Shown here: positions 9,573 to 26,829 of the stretch, piece by piece
Numbering within the stretch: the first letter of the stretch is position 1
Layout of the letters: each line of letters starts with the position of its first letter
From: a candidate division LCP-89 bacterium B3_LCP
Lineage (GTDB): Bacteria; Electryoneota; B3-LCP
Length of the DNA stretch: 64,000 bases
Reading direction: 5' to 3'
NCBI GenBank assembly: GCA_005223185.1
Contig: NJBN01000003.1
Location: forward strand, 310,001 to 374,000
Notes under the pieces: model-generated
What the model was told of the DNA's origin: nothing
Databases searched by the model: none
Seen by the model: only the letters and a program-made list of their open reading frames with translations
Made by a program: the position numbers and the translations under genes

Positions 9573-12098
9573 TTATTTCAGCAGCACCATCTTCCCATTA
9601 GCTACAAACTTTCCTATCTTCAACCGGTAGATATACACCCCCGAAGCCAATCCTGATCCTTCGAAAGTTACCTCATGGGTTCCGGCCTCGCACCAGCGGT
9701 CTACTATTGAGGCTGATTTCAAATCCGCAACCATACACCCAGAAATATCAAATACGTCCAGCTTTACCCAATCCGCCTCAGGCAGGTCAAAGCAAAGGGT
9801 GGTCGTAGAGTTAAAGGGATTAGGGTAGTTCTGATGAAGCAAATATGATTCAGGAATTCGCATACTGGCGGATTGCCTCCCAGCTACGGCAAAATCCTCG
9901 AAGTATCCTCCTGTATTAAACCATTCGGCGAATCCATCTAAACCATTTGAGTCCAGCTTTTCGAAAAGGAAATGATCTATGGACGTATCTGCGCCGACAA
10001 CAGCGTAAGCATTGTAAAAATACCTTCCCGCCGGAGCTGCTGGTGGGACATTCTGATTCCTCAACCGGCTGGCGGTGAATTGCGGCATTAGCGTCACCGA
10101 AACTGGGCCTAATACCGGTCCGTAGATCGTCAAGTTTGGCATAGTTACATCACACCAGATCTGAGTTGTATGCAACACTGAATCAATATTTGTGGCCTGA
10201 ATATCAAAGTCAAAGCTCCCTCCTTCTGCTTGAATCTGGATGGGTGTGTTGTAGGGAGTCAGTAATATGCGCACCGGCTTGCTCTGATCGAAGTAATAGC
10301 ATCCCATATCCGCTCGAGTGCCATCTGGGTCGCTGAATTGGGGATCTGGATCCCCAGAGTTTATACATGGAGAATCCCATTGCAGTCTGTAGTCGCTCTG
10401 CCCAACATTGACGAATGAAGGATCTTGATTGATGTTGCCGATGCCCGGCCAAAACTGTTCAATATTGCTGTATGTTGCTTGCACATTAGACCCGGCAGTT
10501 TGAAAGATCTGTTGTGGTGCATTTGCCCAGAGAATACAGTTTCGTAACTCAGGGTTTGAGCTGGTGCTGTAAAACCCACCACCAATTGATGCGTTATTGA
10601 AGGTGATCGTATTTTTATTCATAGGCACATTGATAAGGTTAAAATAGATCCCTCCACCGCTGCCAGAAGCCGTATTATCACTGATCTCGTTGAATTCGAT
10701 TATGCTGGGACTGGATGAACAGTAAACACCGCCACCATCTGCTGCAAAATTTTCGCTTATGGCGTTGCCGCTGATACCGGGGCTGGAACCATTGTTGCAG
10801 TTAATTCCACCACCTGAACCGGCTGTATTTGCGTAAATGAGGTTATAGCTGATACTGGGACTGGAAGATGTACAATTAATCCCACCGCCGAAAGAAGTAG
10901 CTCCATTTCTGCTAATGGTATTACCACTGATAATGGGATTGGAAGAAGTACAGTTTATCCCACCGCCGGAACTGGCTGAATTTCCCTTGATTGTGTTGTA
11001 GCTTATGGTGAGGTTGGAATTATAGCAGTGAATTCCACCGCCGCCATCAGCCGAATTTTCGCTGATAGTATTGCCGTTTATGGTAATGCTGGAAGAGTTA
11101 CAGTAAATTCCACCGCCGAAGCCGCCCATATAACCTGAAACTGTATTTGTGCTGATTGTATTGCCAATTATGCTGGAGTTGGAATCAAGGCCGCTGCAGT
11201 AAATTCCGCCACCGTATGCTGGATAGGGTTCAAATGAATGAATGGCTGTATTTCCGCTGATGGTGTTGCCGTTAATAGCGATACTGGAACTGCTACAGTG
11301 AATCCCGCCGCCGTAATACACGGCTGAATTTTCGTTGAGGCTGTTGTCGATGATAGAGATGCTGGAACCAGTACAGTATATTCCGCCGCCATATGTTGCT
11401 GAATTCATACAAATGGCATTATTGGCGATTGTGAGAGCTGAATTATCGCAGTAAATCCCGCCGCCGTAAGGCCCGCTTGAATTTCCGTTGATAGTGTTGT
11501 CGCTGATGATAAGGTTTGATCCATCACAATAAATACCGCCACCATTACCATAGTTAGCTGAATTTCCGCTGATGATGCAGCCGCCGATTATGGGACTGGA
11601 ATCGTAACAGTAAATCCCGCCGCCACCGCCGTCCCAGAATGATGCATTTCCGCTGATAGTGCAGTTGACAAAGCTCGGGTTGGAGTTAGCACAATAAATA
11701 CCCCCGCCGTAACAATCTGGACTACTTCCAGTGGCACGTCCGTACTGGACGATACAATAAGATAGGTGGCTGCTATCCGGTGCACCGATAAACCTAATAC
11801 CGTGCCAGCCCTCGGTGGAATTATCTGCCGTGAATAGAACCGAATCAGCCTCTGTCCCTACCGCTTCCAACCAGCCATTTACAATCAGCTTGTAATGTCC
11901 CTGGAAGATCACATCAACCCCCGGATCTATAACCAGCGTCTGATCCGCAGGTACTGTTATTTCGCCTTCAACCAGGTAAGGTGAACCAGCTGCTGTCCAG
12001 GTACCAGAAACTTCTCCACCTGGTATAATGGTTTGCGCAAAAACGAAGGAGATTAGTGTAAGTTCGCTTAATAAAACAAACAGAATGTTTCTGAACAT
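9573..12098 (-). CDS. Large secreted beta-helix protein with T9SS-type sorting domain
   Basis: Exported protein of 841 residues from this start (MFRNILFVLLSEL to FAQ signal peptide; GGAGG five to six nucleotides upstream, within the four-codon extension of the longer frame). The N-terminal module contains YCIVQYGRATG-SSPDCY-GGGIYC, the site that aligns without gaps with the UGA site of the two plus-strand paralogues. About eighteen beta-helix turns follow (GGGIYCxxSSxxINGNTISxNSA). Then come CINSGDPDPQFSDPDGTRADMG, the shared Ig-like module (GGSFDFDIQATN to DHFLFEK) and the sorting domain (NYPNPFNSTT to KMVLLK). No catalytic residues are recognisable. Confidence 0.88.
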   Translation of the reverse strand: MFRNILFVLLSELTLISFVFAQTIIPGGEVSGTWTAAGSPYLVEGEITVPADQTLVIDPGVDVIFQGHYKLIVNGWLEAVGTEADSVLFTADNSTEGWHGIRFIGAPDSSHLSYCIVQYGRATGSSPDCYGGGIYCANSNPSFVNCTISGNASFWDGGGGGIYCYDSSPIIGGCIISGNSANYGNGGGIYCDGSNLIISDNTINGNSSGPYGGGIYCDNSALTIANNAICMNSATYGGGIYCTGSSISIIDNSLNENSAVYYGGGIHCSSSSIAINGNTISGNTAIHSFEPYPAYGGGIYCSGLDSNSSIIGNTISTNTVSGYMGGFGGGIYCNSSSITINGNTISENSADGGGGIHCYNSNLTISYNTIKGNSASSGGGINCTSSNPIISGNTISRNGATSFGGGINCTSSSPSISYNLIYANTAGSGGGINCNNGSSPGISGNAISENFAADGGGVYCSSSPSIIEFNEISDNTASGSGGGIYFNLINVPMNKNTITFNNASIGGGFYSTSSNPELRNCILWANAPQQIFQTAGSNVQATYSNIEQFWPGIGNINQDPSFVNVGQSDYRLQWDSPCINSGDPDPQFSDPDGTRADMGCYYFDQSKPVRILLTPYNTPIQIQAEGGSFDFDIQATNIDSVLHTTQIWCDVTMPNLTIYGPVLGPVSVTLMPQFTASRLRNQNVPPAAPAGRYFYNAYAVVGADTSIDHFLFEKLDSNGLDGFAEWFNTGGYFEDFAVAGRQSASMRIPESYLLHQNYPNPFNSTTTLCFDLPEADWVKLDVFDISGCMVADLKSASIVDRWCEAGTHEVTFEGSGLASGVYIYRLKIGKFVANGKMVLLK

Positions 12099-12123
12099 TT
12101 CATCCTCCATTAGTTAACAAACC

Positions 12124-12154: not shown

Positions 12155-15100
12155 TTACTTCATCAGTACCATTTTACCGGAAGCAGAATAGCTGCCGATA
12201 TCAAGCTGGTAGATGTAGATTCCTGAAGCTAATGCCGATCCATTGAAAGTGACCTCATGCACTCCCGCATCACGCCAGCCGTTGACAAGTTCAGTTACCA
12301 GGCGGCCGGATATGTCGTAGATGGACAGGTTCACGAGACTTGCAACTGGTAGCTGGTAACTGAGAACTGTACTGGGATTGAACGGATTAGGATATGCACC
12401 CAACACCTCAAACTGAGCAGGCACAGCATTGTCAATCTGAGTCATCATTATGTCTTCAAACGGATTGGGCGCATTCAGTGGCAGATTGGATTCAAAGTCG
12501 AATCCCAGATCGACAGGACCGTCTTTCACCCAGGAGAAAGCATCGGTGTGCCAGACTTCATATTCGGGATGCCAGCCGGAATAGATCCTGAAGTCATAAT
12601 TACCACCGGGCCATACTGCAGGGACCGGATACCAGGCATCCGGGCGGTTTATCTGCCAGCCGGGCTGGTAGTTGGTGATTTCGCGTAAAATCAAAGTAGT
12701 GGTGTCGGTACTTTCGTAGATTTTATCTATCCAGATGTCGTAATCCAGTGGTACCGCACCCTGGTTTTCACCCCAGATGGTGTAATAGAGGTTTCCACCT
12801 CCAGCGGACACAGGTGAACCGGAAACGTAATCCACATCGACGACCATAGCTGGTGGGGCTGCTTCGGGTTGATAGAACACAAAATCGTCCAGATACCATC
12901 CTTCTTCACCAACTCCCTGATCTGAACCGAAGCGGAAACGTACTTGAGTATCATCACCAGAGTATGGTAGTTCAGCGCGTTCATAAGCCCAGTCGAAATC
13001 AGAGGAGTAACATTGCGTCCCATAGGCGAAGGGACCACCTGAACTGGTATGAGTAATCTGGTCGGGATAACCGCTCATAGGCGTTATCTGAACCCAGGTT
13101 CCTCCTATCTCCATCTCAATAATGCCACCATCCCAATCCGCTTCGGCGTTCATTCTATGCCAGAAGGAGACTCGGGCATTACTGGTGAAATTCAGCGAGG
13201 GTGTTACCAATTCCGCGTTCAGGAGGGCGCCATACCCACCACTTCCTTCCGAACCGCATTTCCAGGAGGAAAAACCATCAGGGGTGTGGTTTCTCATGGT
13301 GGATATATGCCATTGATCGTTATAGTCTCCGAAAGCAACATCATGAGTCCAACCGCCCATTCCGCTTTCGACATCGTTCGCCAAGACGACGTCCCAGCTC
13401 AGTTCCAATGGGATTGAGGTGGCACTATTTCCACCAAGCCAGGTCAGTAACAGGGTCGCTTCTGCGTCGTATCCGGCAGGGCAGTTGGCATCTACGGAGA
13501 TTACAAACGGAGTAATATTTTCACCAGATAGTGTAATCCCAATATCGGGGAAAGCGGCTTGATTTTGTATGATCGTGATGTATGGATCTGTGCTGTGCAA
13601 AGTACCAGAAACCTGTAGAGCCTCCCCTGAACCGAGGTTCTTTAAGCGGAGGTAAAGATCGCCGGTCTCACCAGCATCCAGGAAACCATCCGCGTCACCG
13701 CCATCGTCTTCGACGACGCTTCCCGAGAAGATGAGATCAGCAGTACCGCCGATAAACTCCAGGTCGAAGGTCATCAAAGGCCCCGAATTGCTGATGTTGG
13801 TGATATAGACACCGGAGGGTCCGTAGTAGCCACCGGAACTGGGATCAGTCAAGGGAGTCAATTCCGTCTGACCATCTTCGGCGCTGAAAGCTGCGCCGAC
13901 GCGAAATTCGTACGGATACCACCATTCGGTAAATTCGATTCCGGGCCAGGGTTGAGAGCTGGTGTATCCGGCGTCTACGACAATACAACCGTAATGAGGT
14001 TCATCAGGTGTGCCGTTGTTCAAGTCCACTTCCTCATCGACATGTTCGATAACCAAACCGGCGTCCAGGGGATTGCTGCCGGGAGTAAACCAGTTAAACC
14101 ACGCTGAAAAATCGCTGTCCCATTTGTCGAAGAGAGCTCCCAGACAATCGGGATTTCTGTTGGCAACCAGGAAATACTCTGTTTCCGATCCACTGATGGG
14201 AATCTTATAAACAACCGGATTGGCTTCATAGTCCGGGACCTGGATGCCAGTCTGCGAAAGCCCTAAGATGACCGGATCAACCCAACCAAGCATCGACTTA
14301 AACAGTGAGGCATGATGATTAGGAGAAGAGCCACGGCCGTAAGATGATATGCCGTAGCCTCCATAGCCCATTATGCCCCAGTCCATAACCGGATGATCGT
14401 TGTCATCTCCCAAGACAGTGAATGTATTTGGATTGAGTTTCTCATCATAGTCGTAGAGATCAGGCAATCCCAGGAGGTGTGTGTATTCGTGAGCGAAGAC
14501 ACCTATTGATTCGATCCCACCGGTGATACCTGTACCCGCCAGTTCAGGATCCATGCTGTAGTCGCTGACATAGACACCATCCAGGTAGACTTCAGGAAAA
14601 GACCAACGATGAGACCAGATATCGTTCACGCTACCAGTATTTTCGGCACCAGGCCCCTGGTGAACAATAATCAATGCATCCACGCGACCATCGCCGTCGT
14701 TGTCGTACTGAGAGAAATCGACACCTAATGCATCAGCAGCTAACACGGCTTCCTCGGCCAGTTTTTGCGCGTTATGAGGATAACTGCCGAATCCGTAGTT
14801 ATTCCAGGTATAGTAGCTGTAGTTATTGTTAGCCATTACCCAGCCGACGACTTCTCCATCTACGCCGAATGCACCGTAAGAGCTTTCCAGGAAGTAGTCG
14901 TTCATACTGCCAGTGGGATAAATACCGGTGGAGTATAACAGACTATCGAAGCTCTCAGGCTGAATCTGATTTGCTATATCTGGTGTTCTGATCAGAATTG
15001 TTAGCGCCTGATCAACTTCATCGGTGCGATCCAGATTCATCGGTGGGATGCGATTGGCATCATCGGGGAAGATCGGATAAGGATCACCGGTTGTGTTTGA

Positions 15101-15229
15101 CTTCAGTGTGATCGGGTCATACAATCCGGGAGCAGGCTGTATATTAGCTTGTATGTTTGCCGCAAATGCGGCGATGAGCAGCAGCGAAAATAATACTGCT
15201 AAGGTCGTTGGTAAATTTTTCCTGTGCAT
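12155..15229 (-). CDS. Secreted M6-like (immune-inhibitor-A-like) metalloprotease with T9SS-type sorting domain
   Basis: Extracellular zinc metalloprotease of 1024 residues. A signal peptide (1-28) precedes a short propeptide-like region and the catalytic domain (about 75-470). The zinc motif is H247-EYT-H251 followed by LLGLPD, the extended HExxHxxGxxD of the M6 family, with a downstream DWGIMGYGG Met-turn-like segment. A calcium-loop-like DNDGDGRVD is at 176-184. A jelly-roll/MAM-like domain (ESGMGGWTHD, FWHRMNAEADWDGG) lies around 615-780. A GGGNLYYTI Ig-like module almost identical to that of the next gene and the sorting domain (YPNPFNPST to KMVLMK) end the protein. It probably degrades extracellular protein together with the neighbouring carboxypeptidase. 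Confidence 0.92.
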   Translation of the reverse strand: MHRKNLPTTLAVLFSLLLIAAFAANIQANIQPAPGLYDPITLKSNTTGDPYPIFPDDANRIPPMNLDRTDEVDQALTILIRTPDIANQIQPESFDSLLYSTGIYPTGSMNDYFLESSYGAFGVDGEVVGWVMANNNYSYYTWNNYGFGSYPHNAQKLAEEAVLAADALGVDFSQYDNDGDGRVDALIIVHQGPGAENTGSVNDIWSHRWSFPEVYLDGVYVSDYSMDPELAGTGITGGIESIGVFAHEYTHLLGLPDLYDYDEKLNPNTFTVLGDDNDHPVMDWGIMGYGGYGISSYGRGSSPNHHASLFKSMLGWVDPVILGLSQTGIQVPDYEANPVVYKIPISGSETEYFLVANRNPDCLGALFDKWDSDFSAWFNWFTPGSNPLDAGLVIEHVDEEVDLNNGTPDEPHYGCIVVDAGYTSSQPWPGIEFTEWWYPYEFRVGAAFSAEDGQTELTPLTDPSSGGYYGPSGVYITNISNSGPLMTFDLEFIGGTADLIFSGSVVEDDGGDADGFLDAGETGDLYLRLKNLGSGEALQVSGTLHSTDPYITIIQNQAAFPDIGITLSGENITPFVISVDANCPAGYDAEATLLLTWLGGNSATSIPLELSWDVVLANDVESGMGGWTHDVAFGDYNDQWHISTMRNHTPDGFSSWKCGSEGSGGYGALLNAELVTPSLNFTSNARVSFWHRMNAEADWDGGIIEMEIGGTWVQITPMSGYPDQITHTSSGGPFAYGTQCYSSDFDWAYERAELPYSGDDTQVRFRFGSDQGVGEEGWYLDDFVFYQPEAAPPAMVVDVDYVSGSPVSAGGGNLYYTIWGENQGAVPLDYDIWIDKIYESTDTTTLILREITNYQPGWQINRPDAWYPVPAVWPGGNYDFRIYSGWHPEYEVWHTDAFSWVKDGPVDLGFDFESNLPLNAPNPFEDIMMTQIDNAVPAQFEVLGAYPNPFNPSTVLSYQLPVASLVNLSIYDISGRLVTELVNGWRDAGVHEVTFNGSALASGIYIYQLDIGSYSASGKMVLMK
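12492..12640. repeat. Near-identical Ig-like module, copy 1 (protease gene)
   Basis: This segment is almost base-for-base identical to 15642-15790, at an offset of 3150. The similarity continues with a few substitutions to about 12830. Wobble positions are preserved, so the copy is recent or has been homogenised by gene conversion. Confidence 0.85.
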
Positions 15230-15301: not shown

Positions 15302-18157
15302 TTACTTCATCAGTACCATTTTACCGGAAGCAGAATGGCTGCCGATATCAAGCTGGTAGATGTATATTCCTGAAGCTAATGCCGATCCATTGAAAGTGAC
15401 CTCATGCACTCCCGCATCCCGCCAGCCGTTGACAAGCTCAGTGACCAAGCGGCCAGAGATGTCGTAGACGGACAGGTTGACAATACTTGCATCTGGCAGC
15501 TTGTAACTGAGAACTGTAGATGGGTTAAACGGATTGGGATAGACTCCCACAACTCCAAAGCTTGTAGGAATTGCCAAATCCGCTGTTGTTTCGATGATCT
15601 CATCGAAGGGATTGGGGAAGCCAGCCGTGGGCAGGTTAGCCTCAAAGTCGAATCCCAGATCGACAGGACCGTCTTTCACCCAGGAGAAAGCATCGGTGTG
15701 CCAGACTTCATATTCGGGATGCCAGCCGGAATAGATCCTGAAGTCATAATTACCACCGGGCCATACTGCAGGGACCGGATACCAGGCATCCGGGCGGTTG
15801 ATCTGCCAGCCGGGCTGGTAGTTGGTAATTTCGCGTAAGATCAGAGTGGTAGTATCGCTGCTTTCGTAAATTTTATCTATCCAGATGTCGTAATCCAGTG
15901 GTACTGCACCCTGGTTTTCACCCCAGATGGCGTAATAGAGGTCACCGCCTCCAGCGGGCACAGGTGAACCGGAAACATAGTCCACTTCTACCACCATTTG
16001 CGGAACACCACCTGACGGGAATCCCGTCACCAGGACGTCATCCACATACCAGCCGGTTTCCGCCCCGCCGTTATCGGAACCGAAGCGGAAGCGGAGCTGG
16101 ATATCGCCGGTGAAAAGCGAAAGATTGGCGGTCTGTTCCACCCAGCCGCCGCTGTTGCCGGAAAAGACCGGAGTGGCGGGATCAAATGGCCCCGTGTAAG
16201 GATTACCACCACCTGCAGTAGCGCGGATGTAATGGGTATAACCATCCATGGGCAGTACTTCCCAGGTTCCGCCATAGAAGATCTCGACAGTACCACCGTC
16301 GTAAGCTGAGTCTGGATAAGCACCGGAAGCTTCAGCAACGATCCAGGACCAGAATTTCAGTTCCGAACTGACGCCGATGTTGATAACAGGTGAAATCAAA
16401 GCACCGTCAGCATTATTGGCATAGCTGCCAATACCGGTATCCCCGAACTTCCAGGAATGAGTGGGTGAATGGCTGTTAGCAGTGGATAAATGCCACTGAT
16501 CAGTCCAGCCGGGAGTCACAATTTCGTGCGTCCAGCCTCCAACGCCGCTCTCCATGTCATCTTCGAAGAAGACCGATGGAGTTCCCACCGTCAGGGTGAT
16601 CACTTCGGTGCGCAAGTATCCACTCTGGTTAATGGTCAAGGTGAAATTCGCCTGATGCCCGGCAGGACAGGTTGGATCAATGTCGGCGATGATGGGATCG
16701 GCAGCGTTATCCGCTGTTTCCCTGCGAGGAATAGCTGGGGTAGTACCGGTGGCAGTTGAAAGCGTGATATATGGATCAGAAGTAGTCAGCTCAAACTCGA
16801 TCGGTTCCGAAGTCCCCCAGCCCCGATTGAATACAGTTACCACGATTTCATCGCTTTCACCGGGAGTAAGGTAGCCATCCACAACTCTGACGGATTGATA
16901 GACAATCTGACCGCCTGCGCACCAGAACTGGTTCATGATACAGCGCTGAATATCACGCGCTTCCGGGAATATCTGCGATACTGGAGGCCAGAAACCGTTA
17001 CCACCTACTTCCGGTTCGAGGTTGATTATGTCATGCGTGTGCAGCTGCCAGTCCTGAGTACGTCCATTGGAAGCGTACATGATCTGATAGCAGGTACCGT
17101 AGCTGTATCCGTTCAGAGCAGAAGCATATTCCATGTATTCCATGTGCACGTCATAATGTTCCGGAGGTACATTGGCATATCCGTAAGCTGTAATGAAGAC
17201 GCCTGCAGCAGTGTGAACTGTCATACCGGTGGTCATAGTATGGTCACCGATGAAGTTCATCATCGTCTGAGCTTCCGGCTCTGATCCGGGTTCAGGACCG
17301 CGATATGTCGATGAGCTGGGTGTCGGGCTCGATCCCTGATTATCGTAACCCCACTGATAGGTGTAGTTACGATTCAGATCTACGCCATAAACACCGCCAC
17401 CGTTATCGCGGCGGTTTTTGCGCCACATACCCCCACCACCGGGATTTGTCAGTATATTGTAGAGAAAACCGTCTGGATTGACAACAGGAACGAAATATAG
17501 TTCGCGGTTATCCACCAGGTAGGTCATTACGGGATCGATCCCGTAATTTTCAAGCAGATTCCACATACCGTACAGCAGACAGGTATAACTGCCCGGTTCG
17601 CGAGCATGGTGCAGTGCATCGAAAATTCCTTCCGGCTCATCTTCGTTGATTTCGACGTTGTCCGAAATCTTCACCATATAGATGGGATTATCATCCCAGC
17701 CGTAGCCCAATATCACCTTTTCCGCACAGATGTCGGGATACAGCATGTGCATCGAGTCGAGATCAGCTACTATCTCTTCGAAGTTATAAAAACCACCCAT
17801 GGATCCATATTTCATATGCACTGGATCTTCGTCAGTCTGCCCGGGAATGTTCTTCATATTCTTCAGGCAGATTTCTCCGTAATAGCTCTCCAGGTCTTCC
17901 TGTACTATCTGATAGGAGATACCCTGATCATCAAGTAGCGCAAGGTCAATTTCCCGCAGGGGGATTTCCAGACCTTCCCCTTCGATGATGCGGGAATCAT
18001 CCAGAGGTAATCCCAAACCAGCCATGATTAGAACCGTCTGCTGATCGGGATTGGGAACCAGTACCGTATGATAAATATGGTTCGCACTTGCCGGAATTCC
18101 ACCTGCAAGTATCAGCAAAGTAGTGATAAGAACTGTAAACCGCTGCATCTGTTTCAT
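15302..18157 (-). CDS. Secreted M14 zinc carboxypeptidase with T9SS-type sorting domain
   Basis: Extracellular metallocarboxypeptidase of 951 residues. It has a signal peptide (1-26, ASA) and a short prodomain. The M14 domain (about 120-410) has zinc ligands H184 and E187 in HHAREPGS and H315 in MTVHTAAG. It also has substrate-binding NPDG and DLNRNY motifs and a candidate catalytic Glu in NLEPEVGG (E381 or E383). A CARDB-like segment (about 415-520), a jelly-roll/MAM-like domain (ESGVGGWTHE, about 530-705), the GGGDLYYAI module shared with the protease gene, and the sorting domain (YPNPFNPST to KMVLMK) follow. GAGAGGA precedes the ATG, and a perfect promoter lies at 18207-18235. It probably trims peptides released by the M6-like protease. 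Confidence 0.93.
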   Translation of the reverse strand: MKQMQRFTVLITTLLILAGGIPASANHIYHTVLVPNPDQQTVLIMAGLGLPLDDSRIIEGEGLEIPLREIDLALLDDQGISYQIVQEDLESYYGEICLKNMKNIPGQTDEDPVHMKYGSMGGFYNFEEIVADLDSMHMLYPDICAEKVILGYGWDDNPIYMVKISDNVEINEDEPEGIFDALHHAREPGSYTCLLYGMWNLLENYGIDPVMTYLVDNRELYFVPVVNPDGFLYNILTNPGGGGMWRKNRRDNGGGVYGVDLNRNYTYQWGYDNQGSSPTPSSSTYRGPEPGSEPEAQTMMNFIGDHTMTTGMTVHTAAGVFITAYGYANVPPEHYDVHMEYMEYASALNGYSYGTCYQIMYASNGRTQDWQLHTHDIINLEPEVGGNGFWPPVSQIFPEARDIQRCIMNQFWCAGGQIVYQSVRVVDGYLTPGESDEIVVTVFNRGWGTSEPIEFELTTSDPYITLSTATGTTPAIPRRETADNAADPIIADIDPTCPAGHQANFTLTINQSGYLRTEVITLTVGTPSVFFEDDMESGVGGWTHEIVTPGWTDQWHLSTANSHSPTHSWKFGDTGIGSYANNADGALISPVINIGVSSELKFWSWIVAEASGAYPDSAYDGGTVEIFYGGTWEVLPMDGYTHYIRATAGGGNPYTGPFDPATPVFSGNSGGWVEQTANLSLFTGDIQLRFRFGSDNGGAETGWYVDDVLVTGFPSGGVPQMVVEVDYVSGSPVPAGGGDLYYAIWGENQGAVPLDYDIWIDKIYESSDTTTLILREITNYQPGWQINRPDAWYPVPAVWPGGNYDFRIYSGWHPEYEVWHTDAFSWVKDGPVDLGFDFEANLPTAGFPNPFDEIIETTADLAIPTSFGVVGVYPNPFNPSTVLSYKLPDASIVNLSVYDISGRLVTELVNGWRDAGVHEVTFNGSALASGIYIYQLDIGSHSASGKMVLMK
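15642..15790. repeat. Near-identical Ig-like module, copy 2 (carboxypeptidase gene)
   Basis: Partner of 12492-12640. The sorting-domain-coding ends of both genes (from 12155 and 15302) are also nearly identical, while the catalytic parts are unrelated. Confidence 0.85.
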
Positions 18158-18511: not shown

Positions 18512-19351
18512 ATGCCGGGAAACAACACGAATCTTACAGAAAGGCTGATAGAACTTGGGCTAAGCGAGAGAGAAGCCAAGGTTTATCAAGCGCTACTGAA
18601 CAAGCGCAACGCTACCATAGCCGAATTGCAGAAGTCTTCCGGTGTTCCTCAGTGCAAGATGTACGAGATAGTCAGGCGCTTGGTTCATCAGGGGTATTGC
18701 CAGGAGAGAAAAGAGGGCAGAAAGAGGACTTTTGACGTTATTGACCCACAAAGTGCTCTGGCATTTCACATACCCAAGCTGGAAAATCGCCTGGATAACG
18801 CCCATGCACTTATTTCAGATTTATCCAGCCAGTTTGCACAATCCGAAAGCGTAGCGGAACCACTTGATTACATTGAAGTGATTCGCGGCAATGATACCAT
18901 ACACAAGCGTTACTGTCAGCTTGTGAACAGTACCAGCAGCGAACTGTTGGGTTTCGGACGGGGACCTTATGCTTGCGACACAGAAGACAAAGTTGACGAA
19001 CAGGATCGTGAGAGTGTGGACATAATCGGACGTGGCGGTGAAGTGCGCTGGGTTTACGAATTGAATTTGGAGGATGATGAATGGATTTTAGGTACGCTTG
19101 ATGGTCTGGTTGAGAACGGCGTGGGGATCAGAGTGGCGGACAATCTGCCTATTAAAATGATGATCTTCGACCGGCAGAAGCTGTTGGTTGCCGATGAGGA
19201 GCCGTTTAATCAGCCCGGTGATTTAACCATGTCCATTATCAAGCAGGGGACTATGGTGAACGCGTTTCGGGCGCTCTTTGAGTTTTTCTGGCAGAAATCC
19301 ATTCCAATAGATGAGTGGATGAAGAAATATGCAATAACCCAACAGGGGTAA
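18512..19351 (+). CDS. TrmB-family transcriptional regulator
   Basis: DNA-binding regulator of 279 residues. The N-terminal winged helix (residues 5-75) shows LTERLIELGLSEREAKVYQAL and a recognition-helix region VPQCKMYEIVRRLVHQGYC, typical of TrmB proteins. A short coiled segment (about 85-110) leads to a C-terminal phospholipase-D-like sensor domain (about 125-270). TrmB proteins are known mostly from Archaea, as sugar-sensing regulators; the effector here cannot be read. The gene is the first of a plus-strand cluster with its own promoter and dyad. It lies only 48 nt before the first UGA-containing cargo gene, so it probably controls both cargo genes and itself. GGTGA upstream of the ATG is a modest ribosome binding site. 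Confidence 0.88.
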   Translation: MPGNNTNLTERLIELGLSEREAKVYQALLNKRNATIAELQKSSGVPQCKMYEIVRRLVHQGYCQERKEGRKRTFDVIDPQSALAFHIPKLENRLDNAHALISDLSSQFAQSESVAEPLDYIEVIRGNDTIHKRYCQLVNSTSSELLGFGRGPYACDTEDKVDEQDRESVDIIGRGGEVRWVYELNLEDDEWILGTLDGLVENGVGIRVADNLPIKMMIFDRQKLLVADEEPFNQPGDLTMSIIKQGTMVNAFRALFEFFWQKSIPIDEWMKKYAITQQG

Positions 19352-19399: not shown

Positions 19400-20824
19400 A
19401 TGTTTCAGATTAAATCATTAATTACAGCTTATGCACTGCTTGTTGTTTTAGCAGTAACAACTTCCTTTGCGCAGCCGATAATCAGCGGACAACAGTCGGG
19501 TACTTTGGGACCCGAGACTTACATTGTGAATGGTGACATACAGGTGCTTTCCGGTCAAACGTTGACCATCATGCCAGGAACCGTTTTCCTGCATAACGGC
19601 AACCATACCTGGGAGATATCCGGTCAGTTAAACGCCGAAGGCACCGAAACGGACAGCATCAAATTCGTGCGCCAGGATCCCATCGATGAACACCGCTGGG
19701 GTGGCATTCGCTTTCTTTCAGGATCATCCGATCAAAGTTCGATTGATTACTGCGTGATAGATCACTGTTTTCACGATATATTCCCATTTGGCAACTATGG
19801 AGCGGGAATATTCATTGACGGAATATATTTAGAGATAAGCAACTCTCGAATTTCAAACTGCCTGAATAACTGGGAAGGTGCTGGTATTTACGCTTATAAT
19901 GCCACCGTTATCACTTCCCATTGCCTGATCGTGGATAACAGCACCGAGGGTGAAAGCAACGGTGGAGGGATATATCTTTTTAATTGCCCACAAGGAGTCA
20001 TAGAATATTCGGTAATTGCCAGAAACGCAGCTACCGGCACGTGAGACCAATGTGGAGGTGGCGGGATCCGCTGCGATAATTCACCAACTGAGATCATCTA
20101 CAATCAGATTTTCGATAATACCTCGCTGATGTTCGGTGGGGGTATTTATGCGGATTCATGTTCTGTGCATCTGGTGAACAATACCATATCACAGAATGTA
20201 TCGGAGGTAATGGAACCTGAAAGTAGGGGTGGCGGGATCTTCGCCAAGCCGACGGCCGATTATTATGGTGAAAACAATATAATCTACGATAACGATGCTT
20301 TTGGAGATCCGGAGTATTCCGGTACTGCCGCACTTAATTATAGTTGCTGTGCAACGACCCTATCTGGCACGGACAACATCACTGATGACCCTCTGTTTGT
20401 CGATCCTTCAGTCGATGATTTCAATTTACAGGAGTTATCACCCTGCATTGATACCGGTGACCCACTAAGCCCCTATGATCCGGACGGCACGCGCGTAGAT
20501 ATGGGAGCACTCTATTACGATCAGTCTGCCGGTGTGATCATCAGCCAGATCGATCATCCATTTGAGTTCAGACTGGAACCTGCATATCCCAATCCCTTCA
20601 ATCCTGTTACTAATATAGCTTTCAGTCTGCCAATAGCAGGGGATGTGATATTAGGAGTCTACAATATACAAGGATCTCAAGTGGCTACACTCCTTGATGA
20701 ATGGCAAAATGCAGGTCGCCATGATGTGACCTTCGTCGCAAATAACCTTAGTTCAGGATTGTATATTGTAAGGTTACAAGCGGGAGAGTTCCATACCTCC
20801 CAAAAAATTGTATTGATGAAATGA
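19400..20824 (+). CDS. Beta-helix T9SS-type cargo with in-frame UGA, copy 1 (candidate selenoprotein)
   Basis: One reading frame of 474 residues broken only by TGA at 20042-20044 (codon 215). The first part has a signal peptide (1-25, SFAQ), an N-terminal module (TIMPGTVFL, HRWGGIRFL) and beta-helix turns (GAGIYAYN, GGGIYLFN). After ...ARNAATGT-UGA-DQC the same helix continues as GGGGIRCDNSP and GGGIYADSC. It closes with CIDTGDPLSPYDPDGTRVDMG, and the sorting domain (YPNPFNPVT to KIVLMK) follows. The UGA falls in a turn between helix rungs and makes U-x-x-C. In the 9573-12098 paralogue the aligned turn has Ser for U and Cys for Cys. Truncation at UGA would leave half a helix without a sorting domain. 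The translation start has AAGG upstream. Confidence 0.75.
20058..20074 (+). promoter_or_regulatory. SECIS-like hairpin downstream of in-frame UGA, copy 1
   Basis: GUGGCG (20058-20063) pairs with CGCUGC (20069-20074), with two G-U pairs, leaving the loop GGAUC (20064-20068). The loop starts at +20 after UGA. The loop could be closed further by a G-C pair to GAU. Twenty-six nucleotides from 20051 to 20076 are identical to 21568-21593. Confidence 0.55.
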
Positions 20825-20925
20825 CCAAAAGGTATATAATTCGAAATAAAAGAGGGCATAAAGAATTCTCAACCAATAAAAGTGTGCAGAAAAGGCAAGA
20901 AAACAAGTAAAAAGGAGAGATTGCT

Positions 20926-23925
20926 ATGGAAAAACTGCTGAAAGTTTTAATGCTGTGCCTGCTGGTAGCGGGTTTTGCTCAGGCACAGACGTACATCAGT
21001 GGACCGCAGTCAGGAACGCTCGGACCCGGTCTCTACATAGTAGAGGGCAACATCCGGGTGATGCCCGGAGAAACGCTCACCATAGTTCCTGGTACGGACC
21101 TGCAACACAACGGCAACTGGAAATGGGAGATCTACGGACAGCTGAATGCTGAAGGTACCGAAAGCGACAGTATCTATTTTGTCCGTCAAAATCCTGTGGG
21201 TGAACATCGATGGGCGAGTCTTCGCTTTATGGAAGGTGCAGCCGACGCCAGCACGATAGACTACTGCGTCATCGACAACTGCAATATTCCCAGCGGTACT
21301 CCAAGCACCAAGTTAGGCGGCGGTATCTACACGAATGGTGTCGATATAACCGTGACCAACAGCAGAATATCTAACTGTGACGCCTACTGGCACGGCGGCG
21401 GTATTTACGCCAGTTCTGCCAATATCGTGGTAGACTATTGTCTGATCGTCGACAATACGGCTACTTCGGGCGCAAATGGCGGGGGAATTTATCTGATGAA
21501 CTGCGATAATGCAGTCATCACTAACTCCGAGATCGCGCGAAATAGCGCCACCGGTACGTGAGGTACCTGTGGAGGTGGCGGGATCCGCTGCGAAAATTCC
21601 CCAGCTACAATTACTTACAACCTCATCTACGACAACACTTCCGTTTACTTTGGAGCCGGTATTTTAGCTACTGGCTGCACTCCCGAAGTTATCAACAACA
21701 CAATCGCAGGGAACAGATGTACTTCAACTTTACCAGCCGCTAATGGTGGTGGTCTCTGGGCAAACGAAGGTGCATCATTTGAGGGCATCAACAACATTCT
21801 ATACTACAACTATGCCACGAATAATTCGGAATATGCTGGTGATGTCAGCTTCAGCTATTCCTGTTGCTCAGTTGAATTCGATGGTGAAGAAAACATCACC
21901 GATGCACCGGAATTCGTTGATCCTCAGAATTTCGATTTCAACTTGATGGTGAATTCTCCCTGCATAGACAATGGCAGTCCATTTAGTCCGCTTGATCCTG
22001 ACGGTACCTATGCTGATATGGGCGCCCTCTATTTTGACCAGGGAACCACAGCACAGCTCCGCCCGGCAGCGCCGAGCGATTTTACAGTTAGCCATAATAA
22101 TACACTGTTAATCGCATCTATGGACTGGACTAATCCCAGTCTGAATGCCATCGGAGATCCCCTTTCCGACCTGACAGGTGTAAAGGTGTATCGAAATGGC
22201 GATTTAATTGCCGACCTGACTGACGTGGTCATGGGTGAATCCTACGCTTACGATGATGATGCGGTACCGGTTGCCGGTATGTATGATTACAAACTGGCGC
22301 CCTATAACTCGTATGGTGAAGGCCTGTGGATTCAAGTATCCGCCTGGATCGGTCTGGATACACCGGGTGAGGTTCAGAACGTCATCGCCACACCCGATCC
22401 TAACGAATTGCTGGAATGTACCATCACCTGGGATGCACCGGTAGAAGGCGAACACAGCGGCTACTGGCCCACCGGATCATGGACAGGGCAGAGAGTATAT
22501 CGTGACAACGTCATGATTGTCGATCTGCTTGGTACCAATACCTCATACGTTGATAATACCATGCCCATAGCCGATTGGTATAGCTACGGTGTATCATATT
22601 ACAACGATTCAGGTGAAGGACCCATCACTACTGCAGATCCCGATCCGATCTTTGTGGGACCGCCACAGTTTGCTGAGATTCCGTACGGTTGGGTCGAAAT
22701 CGCCGGAATTGGAACCAACACCGGAATCACCATGGACGACCAAGTACAGGGACCATTTGATATAGGTTTCGCCTTCCCGTCCTACGGGTACAGCGCTTAC
22801 AGCCAGATCTACGTCTGTTCCAACGGCTGGGCGTCGTTCAACGCGGAAACCTACGGTGCTTTTACTAACGCCCCCATTCCCACTGCTGCGACACCAAACA
22901 ACCTGGTTTGTCCTTACTGGGATGATATGAATCCCACCCAGGGTGGGGATATATGGTACATGTACGATGAAGCCAATGAGCGTTTCATTGTCGAATGGAG
23001 AAATGTTCCTCATTACAGTACAGGTGGTAGTTATACCTTTGAGATAATCCTGTACCCCAATGGCGACATAGACTTCATGTACGCTCAATTGACGCCCGGA
23101 ACTGCTAATTCGGCGACGGTAGGATCCGAGAACGCCGATGGGACTGATGGAATCCAGGTTACCTTCGACGGTTCAGGTCCGCTAAATCCTGTCGCTGATA
23201 TGGGAATCAGGATTTATCCAGTTTCCTTAGGAGCACCGGACGTTACCGTTACCATGACACCCATTGGAGCACCTATAGTCCTTCCGGCTGTTGGTGGGAC
23301 ATTCGACTACAACATAGCAGTTACCAACAACGAAAGTTCTGCGGTACCTATGGACGTCTGGGTAATGGTACAATTACCTAACAGCGTCTGGTATGGGCCA
23401 GTGCTGGGTCCTGTTAACATTACCTTACCAGCGACGGTTACCATAGACCGTGATCGTCAGCAGTCAGTGCCTGGTAGTGCACCAACTGGAACCTACAATT
23501 ACGAAGGCCGCGTTGGTTATTATCCCGATGCCGTCTGGCATTCGGATAGCTTCACCTTCGAGAAATCCTCGACAGGTGATGGCGCGATAATCGAGGAGTG
23601 GTTGAATACCGGTGAGTCTTTTGAAGATCTAATGAATCAAATGGCTGCTGAATCTGTTCCGGACGTGTTCTCACTGGGACAGAACTACCCCAACCCCTTC
23701 AACCCGAGCACGACGATTAACTTCAATCTGCCACAGATGGTCAAGGTCAATCTGTCCGTGTATGACGTTAGCGGCAGGCTGGTCGCAACGGTGGTTGACG
23801 GCTATCGCCAGGCTGGCAGTCACGAAGTAACCTTCGATGGTTACGGACTGGCTTCAGGCATGTACATCTACCGGATTCATGCCGGTGATTTCATCGCCAG
23901 CGGCAAGATGGTTATGATCAAGTAA
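20926..23925 (+). CDS. Beta-helix T9SS-type cargo with in-frame UGA, copy 2 (candidate selenoprotein)
   Basis: A 999-residue frame broken only by TGA at 21559-21561 (codon 212). It has a signal peptide (1-20, FAQA), a module (TIVPGTDLQ, HRWASLRF) and a beta-helix. The UGA sits at the same turn as in copy 1: SATGT-UGA-GTC-GGGGIRCENSP, again U-x-x-C. The helix ends with CIDNGSPFSPLDPDGTYADMG. Two FnIII-like domains (about 365-565), a nidogen-like domain (about 570-765; SNGWASFN, CPYWDDMNP), the shared Ig-like module (GGTFDYNI to DSFTFEK) and the sorting domain (YPNPFNPST to KMVMIK) follow. AAAAGGAG lies seven nucleotides before the ATG. Protein-level conservation with copy 1 continues after the UGA while codons differ, which indicates that the downstream part is translated. 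Confidence 0.78.
21575..21591 (+). promoter_or_regulatory. SECIS-like hairpin downstream of in-frame UGA, copy 2
   Basis: Same stem and GGAUC loop as copy 1, with the loop beginning at +20 after UGA. The codons before the block differ (GGT ACC against GAC CAA), and so do those after it. Conservation at the nucleotide level is therefore limited to the hairpin and its edges. Confidence 0.55.
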
Positions 23926-23990: not shown

Positions 23991-24165
23991 AATAGGTCAT
24001 AATTCGCGGAGTATTTTACCGACCGATTCTTAGAATTCTCTGATATCCTTGAGGATACGCATTATCTGTTTTGAAAGGTAATTATCAATCGTTATGTTAT
24101 ATGTCAATCTTATCTCGGTGAGAGGTTAATTCTCAAGGCGAACCAGAAATATCTTGAAAGATAAA

Positions 24166-26829
24166 ATGGACGTTGAAACCGAAAGCTCTACAGAACTAAA
24201 AGAAGAATTGGAACGTCTGCGCGGGAGAGTGGCTGAATTGGAGGAATTGGAAACCGAACGTAAGCATGCGGAGGATGCACTGCTCCGCTCAGAGACGAAG
24301 TTTCGCGCATTGTATGATTCGAGCAGCGACGCGGTCATGCTGCTCGACGAGAAGGGCTTCTTCGATTGCAACGAGGCCACGTTAGGTATCTTCAGTTGTA
24401 AGAGTAAAGCAGAGTTCTGTTCAAAGCATCCGGCCGATATATCTCCACCCGCTCAACCCTGCGGCACGGACTCGATGACACTGGCCAACGAACGAATCGC
24501 CACAGCAATGAAGGACGGCAGCAACCGCTTTGAGTGGATGCACAAGCGTCTTGACACCGGCAAGCCGTTCCCCGCCGAGGTCTTGCTCAATGCCCTGGAA
24601 CTTGATGGGAGACAGGTACTTCAGGCGGTGGTCCGCGATGTCACCGCACGCAAGCAGATGGAGGAGACACTGCTCCGCTCAGAGACGAAGTTTCGCACAT
24701 TGTATGATTCGAGCAGTGACGCGGTCATGCTGCTCGACGAGAAGGGCTTCTTCGATTGCAACGAGGCCACGTTAGGTATCTTCAGTTGTAAGGATAAAGC
24801 AGAGTTCTGTTCCAAGCATCCGGCCGACATATCTCCACTCGTCCAGCCCTGTGGCATGGACTCAATGACGCTGGCCAACGAACGAATCGCCACAGCAATG
24901 AAGGACGGCAGCAACCGCTTCGAGTGGATGCACAAGTGTCTTGATACCGGTAAGCCGTTCCCCGCCGAGGTCTTGCTCAATGCCATGGAGCTTGATGGGA
25001 AACAGGTACTTCAGGCGGTGGTCCGCGATGTCACCGCACGCAAGCAGGCGGAGGCGGAACTTGAGGAATATCGCAACAATCTCGAGAAACTGGTCGAAAA
25101 GCGTACGGTTGAACTTAACGATGTAAACTCTTACCTTGAGGAAACGATCCGGAAGCTGGAAGAATCGGTTGAATATGCGCAGGAGATGGCGATACAAGCG
25201 CAAGACGCCAGCGCTGCGAAAAGCGAATTCTTAGCTAACATGAGCCATGAGATTCGCACACCAATGAATGGTGTAATCGGCATGACGGGACTTCTGCTTG
25301 ACACAGACCTTAATGACGAGCAGCGCGAATATGCCGCAATAGTCCAAACCAGCGCAGATTCGCTTCTAGCGATTATTAACGATATTCTCGATTTTTCGAA
25401 GGTTGAAGCAGGGAAAATAGAATTAGAAATTATCGACTTTGATCTTCGAACCATGATAGCTGAAACCGGCGATCTCATGGCCATGAAGGCTCAGGAAAAG
25501 GATTTGGAATACATTCATATCATTGACCCTGACGTCCCTTCCTTATTGCAGGGTGATCCGGGACGCTTGCGGCAGATTCTGACTAATCTGATAGGCAATG
25601 CAATAAAGTTCACCGAAGGTGGAGAGATTTCTGTTAAGGTCAATCTTGATACAGAAGACGAAAAAAATGCTTCTTTACGATTTGAAATAAGCGATACTGG
25701 AGCAGGAATTCCAGAGGACAAACGGAATAGTCTGTTTGATCCATTTACGCAGGTAGATGCATCCACCACAAGAAAATTTGGCGGCACCGGGCTTGGACTA
25801 TCCATTTCCAGACGAATTACAGGACTGATGGGCGGTGAGATTGGTGTCGAAAGTGTAGAAGGCGAAGGTTCTACGTTTTGGTTTACCGCCATTCTGGGCA
25901 AACAGTCACCGGTATTAAAACCAATTGAGGAAAACCTAAAAAGCCTCACTGGTGAGCGCATCCTGATCGTCAATGACAATAAAACAAACCGGTACTGGTT
26001 GTCATTACTGCTCAGTTCCTGGCAGTGTCGGTTTGAGAAAGCCCCTAACGGTGAGACTGCACTGCAAAAGCTCAGAGAGGCTTCAAGCGAAGGTGATCCT
26101 TATCGAATAGCCATTCTGGACATGCAGATGCCCATAATGGACGGTGAAACATTAGGCATCAAAATAAAGGAGATCCCTGAACTGCAGGATACACTCTTGG
26201 TTATGATGACTTCATTGGGAAAACGCGGTGATGCTGCCCGTATGAAAGAAATCGGGTTTTCCGCCTATCTTTCCAAACCTGTTAATCAATCGCAGTTGCA
26301 TGACTGTCTGGTAATGATTCACAGTAGTACGGACAAGAATTATGAAGATGCATCACCGCATTTAGTTTCAAAACATACAGTCTCTGAAGCGAGACGGAGA
26401 AACGTGCGCATTCTATTGGCTGAGGATAATAGGATTAATCAAACCCTAGCTCTGGCGATTCTAAGCAAACTAGGGTATAGAGCTGATGCAGTTGGCAATG
26501 GTTTGGAAGCTGTTAAAGCGTTGGAGATGATTCCTTATGATATAGTATTTATGGATGTGCAAATGCCCGAAATGGACGGCTTGGAGGCCACAGACCGAAT
26601 CCGCGATCCCCAATCCAAAGTCCGCAATCATGACATTCCGATCATAGCAATTACGGCTAATGCTATGCAGGGTGATAAAGAGGAGTGCATTGAGGCAGGG
26701 ATGGATGATTACATTTCCAAGCCGATCAGCTCCGATGCAGTTAACAATGCCATAGAAAAATGGACAGGTAAGGGTAATAAAGGAAACTTCAAAATAGAAA
26801 ATATTGAAACCTTAATAGCGGAAGATTAA
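24166..26829 (+). CDS. Hybrid sensor histidine kinase: PAS-PAS-HisKA-HATPase-REC-REC
   Basis: Cytoplasmic hybrid kinase of 887 residues without membrane segments. A short coiled coil (5-40) leads to two PAS domains (about 40-165 and 170-295) that are nearly identical copies. A second coiled coil follows, then HisKA with H361 in [12 protein letters not shown], and HATPase with the N box NLIGNAIKF and the G boxes DTGAGIP and [10 protein letters not shown]. The first receiver has phospho-acceptor D652 ([12 protein letters not shown]) but a degenerate acidic pair (VNDN). The second has a full set with D797 ([11 protein letters not shown]). The start is taken at the ATG; a TTG four codons upstream is also possible. 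No cognate output regulator is next to it; it follows the terminated cargo cluster. Confidence 0.93.
24281..24655 (+). repeat. Tandem PAS-coding repeat, unit 1
   Basis: This 130-codon unit recurs at an offset of 390 nt (24671-25045) with only scattered base differences, many of them at silent positions. It is a recent intragenic duplication in phase with the domain boundary. Confidence 0.9.
24671..25045 (+). repeat. Tandem PAS-coding repeat, unit 2
   Basis: Second copy of the PAS unit. Protein differences from unit 1 include PPA/PLV, RLD/CLD and SK/DK. Both copies keep the same [18 protein letters not shown] core. Confidence 0.9.

Follow-up and report, generated by a model that had tools for sequence, protein, structure and literature searches.

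The DNA examined here, termed the window, is the whole stretch of 64,000 nucleotides from the candidate division LCP-89 bacterium B3_LCP, and it encodes a pair of paralogous genes, A and B, each of which is interrupted by a single TGA codon. The relevant features are as follows:

18512..19351, + strand: TrmB-like HTH regulator gene, 48 bp upstream of gene A
19400..20824, + strand: gene A, candidate T9SS-type beta-helix selenoprotein of 474 aa, predicted Sec at residue 215 (from the ORF and its domains)
20042..20044, + strand: in-frame TGA of gene A, predicted Sec codon
20058..20074, + strand: SECIS-type hairpin of gene A, GUGGCGG-GAU-CCGCUGC, loop starting 20 nt past the UGA
20926..23925, + strand: gene B, 999-aa paralogue of A (beta-helix, nidogen-like part and T9SS tail), predicted Sec at residue 212
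21559..21561, + strand: in-frame TGA of gene B, predicted Sec codon
21575..21591, + strand: SECIS-type hairpin of gene B, its 17 nt identical to those of gene A

Both products display a signal-peptide-like N-terminus, followed by a region recognized by Pfam and NCBIfam as a right-handed beta-helix and by a Por_Secre_tail T9SS sorting domain, for which PF18962 and TIGR04183 score above their cut-offs in either gene. An earlier sequence-only reading of this DNA had claimed that each gene carries one in-phase TGA at a matching site, beyond which the frame runs on to a sorting domain, and both statements hold at the coordinates given above. Gene B terminates with TAA, while gene A terminates with a normal TGA (20822-20824) followed by an in-frame TAA; hence UGA would have two meanings inside this one gene. 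As developed below, it is highly likely that the internal UGA of both genes is read as selenocysteine, an inference that is strongly supported, if by comparative rather than experimental evidence, there being no selenium, peptide or ribosome data.

The window also contains a non-Sec beta-helix paralogue (9573-12110, minus strand), which is rich in GGGIYC turns, lacks an in-frame TGA and serves as a control. Two different T9SS-tailed peptidases (12155-15229 and 15302-18157, minus strand) share a nearly identical module (DYDIWIDKIYES...FDFE), which is also found in diverged form in a Sec beta-helix gene (L020), a distribution suggestive of module shuffling. Downstream of gene B, a hybrid sensor kinase (24154-26829, plus strand) possesses two nearly identical tandem PAS-like modules, which suggests a recent internal duplication.

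A search across the 3,794,239 bases of the genome recovered seven intact paralogues, including A and B, with a TGA at exactly this site, along with one truncated copy and two divergent family members. The truncated copy (L031; G000:C16:54170-55069, minus strand) starts at the U-x-x-C motif without a proper upstream part and looks like a pseudogene. More generally, the regions of gene A that encode the beta-helix or the T9SS tail are matched 187 times in genome G000, constituting a large expansion of exported proteins. In its strict form the set comprises 33 intact genes from several named phyla, with the same-site TGA present in metagenome-assembled genomes labeled Tariuqbacter, Calditrichaeota, Zixibacteria, Sabulitectum and Aegiribacteria, and a Chitinivibrionales genome has a related U site. 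A possible further member, albeit a weaker candidate, is a beta-helix ORF of Zixibacteria bin38 (L101:3082, CP070742.1) with an in-frame TGA in the context GPU-PYC-NGAGVFC and a weaker hairpin. Thus what the sequence-only reading observed is not merely confirmed but had been understated.

That reading had also recommended a search for homologues with Cys, Sec or TGG at this codon. A pattern equally permitting TGC, TGT and TGG was run against 39 genomes of the phylum and returned 32 matches in nine of them, every one with TGA and none with a Cys or Trp codon. All but one of these (31/32) are family sites, one being the truncated copy; the remaining match, in G026, was rejected as a chance occurrence outside any coding frame. 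No Cys-containing homologue was detected among the best 79 loci or in the 39 phylum genomes, although this search was not exhaustive, and no homologue found to have the loop shows a sense codon at the site. A broader TGA-UxxC genome pattern was abandoned as a means of finding members, as a backwards control indicated that its matches are mostly due to chance. The recurrence of the in-frame TGA at this site is far beyond chance, and very probably a large selenoprotein family, with no ordinary cysteine version among the sequences searched, has been previously overlooked.

In both window genes a 7-bp stem capped by a 3-nt GAU loop begins 13 nt past the UGA; its loop, stem and spacing (20 nt) satisfy the published bSECIS constraints, so that the anticipated SECIS-type element is indeed present, together with compensatory changes. 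The fold energies of 35-nt windows range from -9.5 to -17.8 kcal/mol. Against shuffled sequences the folding energy of the hairpin is unremarkable. Since the corresponding z-scores were not significant, covariation and codon bias were used as evidence instead. Across 33-35 genes, 98.8-99.1% of the stem cells are paired, and the covariation score of 0.25-0.26 compares with about 0.14 for shuffled alignments, none of 500 shuffles reaching as high; it is also well above slid controls. The compensatory pairs include GGA with CTC and GGT with CAC, and in one case a Gly-to-Asn change (GGC to AAC) is offset by a synonymous CGC-to-CGT change. In Aegiribacteria and Sabulitectum the stem is retained, with U-A replacing C-G and a GGU loop. 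Furthermore, all 33 genes use GGG for the glycine located seven codons past the UGA, whereas GGG accounts for only 13.7% of their other Gly codons. Covariance-model matches at E < 1e-5 were restricted to family-bearing genomes, the best match elsewhere being 0.002. One match within the window (11013-11049, minus strand) was rejected, as it falls in an ordinary paralogue that lacks Sec and in which the TGA is not in frame. Judged by these substitution patterns, the hairpin is under pair-preserving selection.

The protein itself is conserved on either side of the codon. The sequence-only reading had noted that similarity between the copies persists past the UGA. The part preceding the codon has a median identity of 39.2% and the part following it one of 41.7%, so that the latter is no less conserved. 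The proposed dN/dS comparison could be realized only in part: as dS is saturated, absolute values are uninformative and the two sides of the UGA were instead compared with each other, giving similar pN/pS ratios of 0.56 before and 0.52 after. Invariant residues cluster at U-x-x-C-G-G, and the stretch U-x-x-C-G-G-x-G, usually part of a U-x-x-C-G-G-x-G-I-R motif, ranks with the best-conserved parts of the alignment. Conservation is weaker for the Cys than for the Sec: the Cys is replaced by Asn in G011:C74 and absent from its position in L042, both of which keep the Sec; the suggested U-x-x-C motif therefore stands for most members but not for these two. An AlphaFold model predicts the beta-helix with confidence, also around the Sec loop, which lies between the strands at 205-207 and 223-226. 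Ordinary beta-helix turns lack this whole inserted loop, and hence it seems, to the extent that such an inference can be drawn from extant sequences, that the Sec arrived together with the loop instead of replacing a Cys. Fold searches offered no functional lead, recovering only generic beta-helix lyases and tailspikes (the best being pectate lyase Pel9A, TM 0.41), and a search of plasmids found nothing beyond distant similarities to the beta-helix and the tail.

The genome encodes two tRNA-Sec genes, both with the anticodon UCA, two full-length SelB proteins, two SelA proteins and a SelD whose own frame crosses a TGA (CAGUASKLG). It is thus equipped for selenocysteine, and the search that had been suggested for selA, selB, selD and tRNA-Sec found every component, with all but SelD doubled. 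None of the findings that the sequence-only reading had listed as refuting turned up.

Against this background, other explanations of the internal UGA can be weighed. Translation past the UGA is clear, which in itself would be equally compatible with readthrough by a near-cognate or suppressor tRNA, for instance one for Trp, without any Sec. This is, however, very unlikely, given that gene A itself terminates at TGA, that TGG or TGY occupies the site in 0/32 matches, and that a covarying SECIS-type hairpin coexists with the full Sec machinery. Start codons downstream of the UGA do give long ORFs, and the genes could accordingly be seen as truncated, with the remainder a relic or separately started; nevertheless, the same-site TGA in 33 intact genes and a downstream identity equal to that upstream leave this even less credible. 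The least probable of these explanations is an error of sequencing or assembly, for while the genome is probably metagenome-assembled, the same TGA is seen in numerous assemblies that different projects produced independently. Selenocysteine insertion has its own weak points, namely a folding energy no better than that of shuffled sequence and a Sec without a Cys homologue, which is unusual among selenoproteins. Even so, we regard the assignment of genes A and B to a new family of exported selenoproteins, with Sec insertion being inferred, as very probable. The conserved UGA, the selection on the hairpin, the machinery and the two-sided conservation of the protein are established, in so far as comparison of sequences can establish them, while the surface location of the proteins is inferred by prediction and the selenol/thiol loop is likewise only inferred to act in redox chemistry or metal(loid) binding.

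The doubling of the machinery raises a further possibility, namely that either the type I or the type II set of SelA, SelB and tRNA-Sec works specifically for this family and reads its GAU hairpin, resulting in two partly orthogonal Sec systems. Two SelA proteins are present in 8/8 family-bearing genomes of the phylum and in 0/31 others, two SelB proteins in 7/8 versus 0/31, and two tRNA-Sec genes in each of the six f1 genomes. A single tRNA-Sec was seen in each of the f7 and f8 genomes, whose completeness is 77-79%. The SelA tree, the SelB tree and the tRNA T-arms concur in the same split into types I and II, of which type I is common to family f2, whereas the tRNA of type II is similar to the one in f3-f6. 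The genes of the two sets lie on different contigs, and both sets recur across several genera. Both types occur only in f1, f7 and f8, to which the beta-helix family is likewise limited within the phylum, so that in the main lineage it is confined to bacteria with two Sec-insertion systems. The Chitinivibrionales genome with the related U site (G046; L328/L189 and L330/L179) also has two SelB proteins, each encoded near its own distinct tRNA-Sec on the same contig; this genome lies outside the phylum of the window, and one of its SelB proteins is on a very long branch. On the other hand, f1, f7 and f8 may be a single clade, in which case the co-occurrence could reflect a single event, and the Aegiribacteria and Sabulitectum genomes carry the family with only one SelB. 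An attempt to infer from the SelD hairpin which SelB type goes with which SECIS loop remained undecided, as the SelD loop varies between families (GGA, GAU and AGUUG) and hence does not reveal which SelB reads the hairpin. Taken together, a dedicated system is a tentative proposal, and the evidence leans somewhat against it.

With respect to control of the family, the sequence-only reading had invoked the adjacent TrmB-like regulator. A TrmB-like gene adjoins family members at four loci in two phyla (the window, L151, L071 and, in the other phylum, L072), which supports a link, but none was found beside most other members; the claim is thus upheld as regards adjacency alone, without any data on regulation.

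If the UGA is indeed read as selenocysteine, a ribosome arriving at it would encounter the 7-bp GAU-loop hairpin, with its loop 20 nt downstream. SelB loaded with Sec-tRNA-Sec(UCA) would bind this hairpin and insert selenocysteine in place of a stop. The predicted product would be a secreted, T9SS-sorted parallel beta-helix, which displays the Sec in the inserted loop of one turn.

This arrangement is reminiscent of the formate dehydrogenase type of selenoprotein in E. coli, which similarly combines an in-frame UGA, a hairpin just downstream within the coding region, and SelA, SelB, SelD and tRNA-Sec. It differs from other bacterial SECIS-dependent selenoproteins in having a GAU loop where the usual pattern is G[G|U], and in being, by prediction, a beta-helix of the cell surface and not one of the known redox enzymes, with no Cys homologue found. 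Exported selenoproteins are already known, as the FCYXU-type TonB-dependent receptor and MtrB/PioB-like proteins have been predicted to be outer-membrane selenoproteins (PMC13188914). However, these differ from the beta-helix family in fold, export route and motif, and the TonB-type family has Cys homologues. The fold and tail are shared with the Beta_helix (PF13229) plus Por_Secre_tail (PF18962) proteins, many paralogues of which are present in the genome, but ordinary members of this group lack the entire U-x-x-C loop. There is no NCBIfam selenoprotein model for the family protein, and the terms beta-helix, T9SS and sorting do not occur in the text of a 2026 review (PMC13188914). Application of deep-Sep to the candidate division LCP-89 bacterium B3_LCP reported four known and no new selenoproteins (PMC12013277), and we infer that the assembly used was the genome analysed here. 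Its authors indicate that selenoproteins lacking Cys homologues may escape the method, all known ones now having such homologues (PMC12013277). A precedent for doubled machinery is Photobacterium profundum 3TCK, whose genome harbours two complete Sec operons (PMC5330540). There the sets are operons in a single gammaproteobacterium, whereas those of LCP-89 are scattered over contigs and occur in several genera, where their presence goes together with that of a selenoprotein family. Thus, the present analysis adds a multi-copy selenoprotein family, located at the cell surface by prediction, where a state-of-the-art predictor reported nothing new. Should the proposal of a dedicated system prove true, these bacteria would possess two parallel and partly orthogonal routes of Sec insertion, of which one would serve a large family of Sec-only surface proteins exported via T9SS. 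The coexistence of two systems makes the splitting of natural Sec insertion into separate channels a testable idea, and such channels would be of relevance to the engineering of the genetic code.
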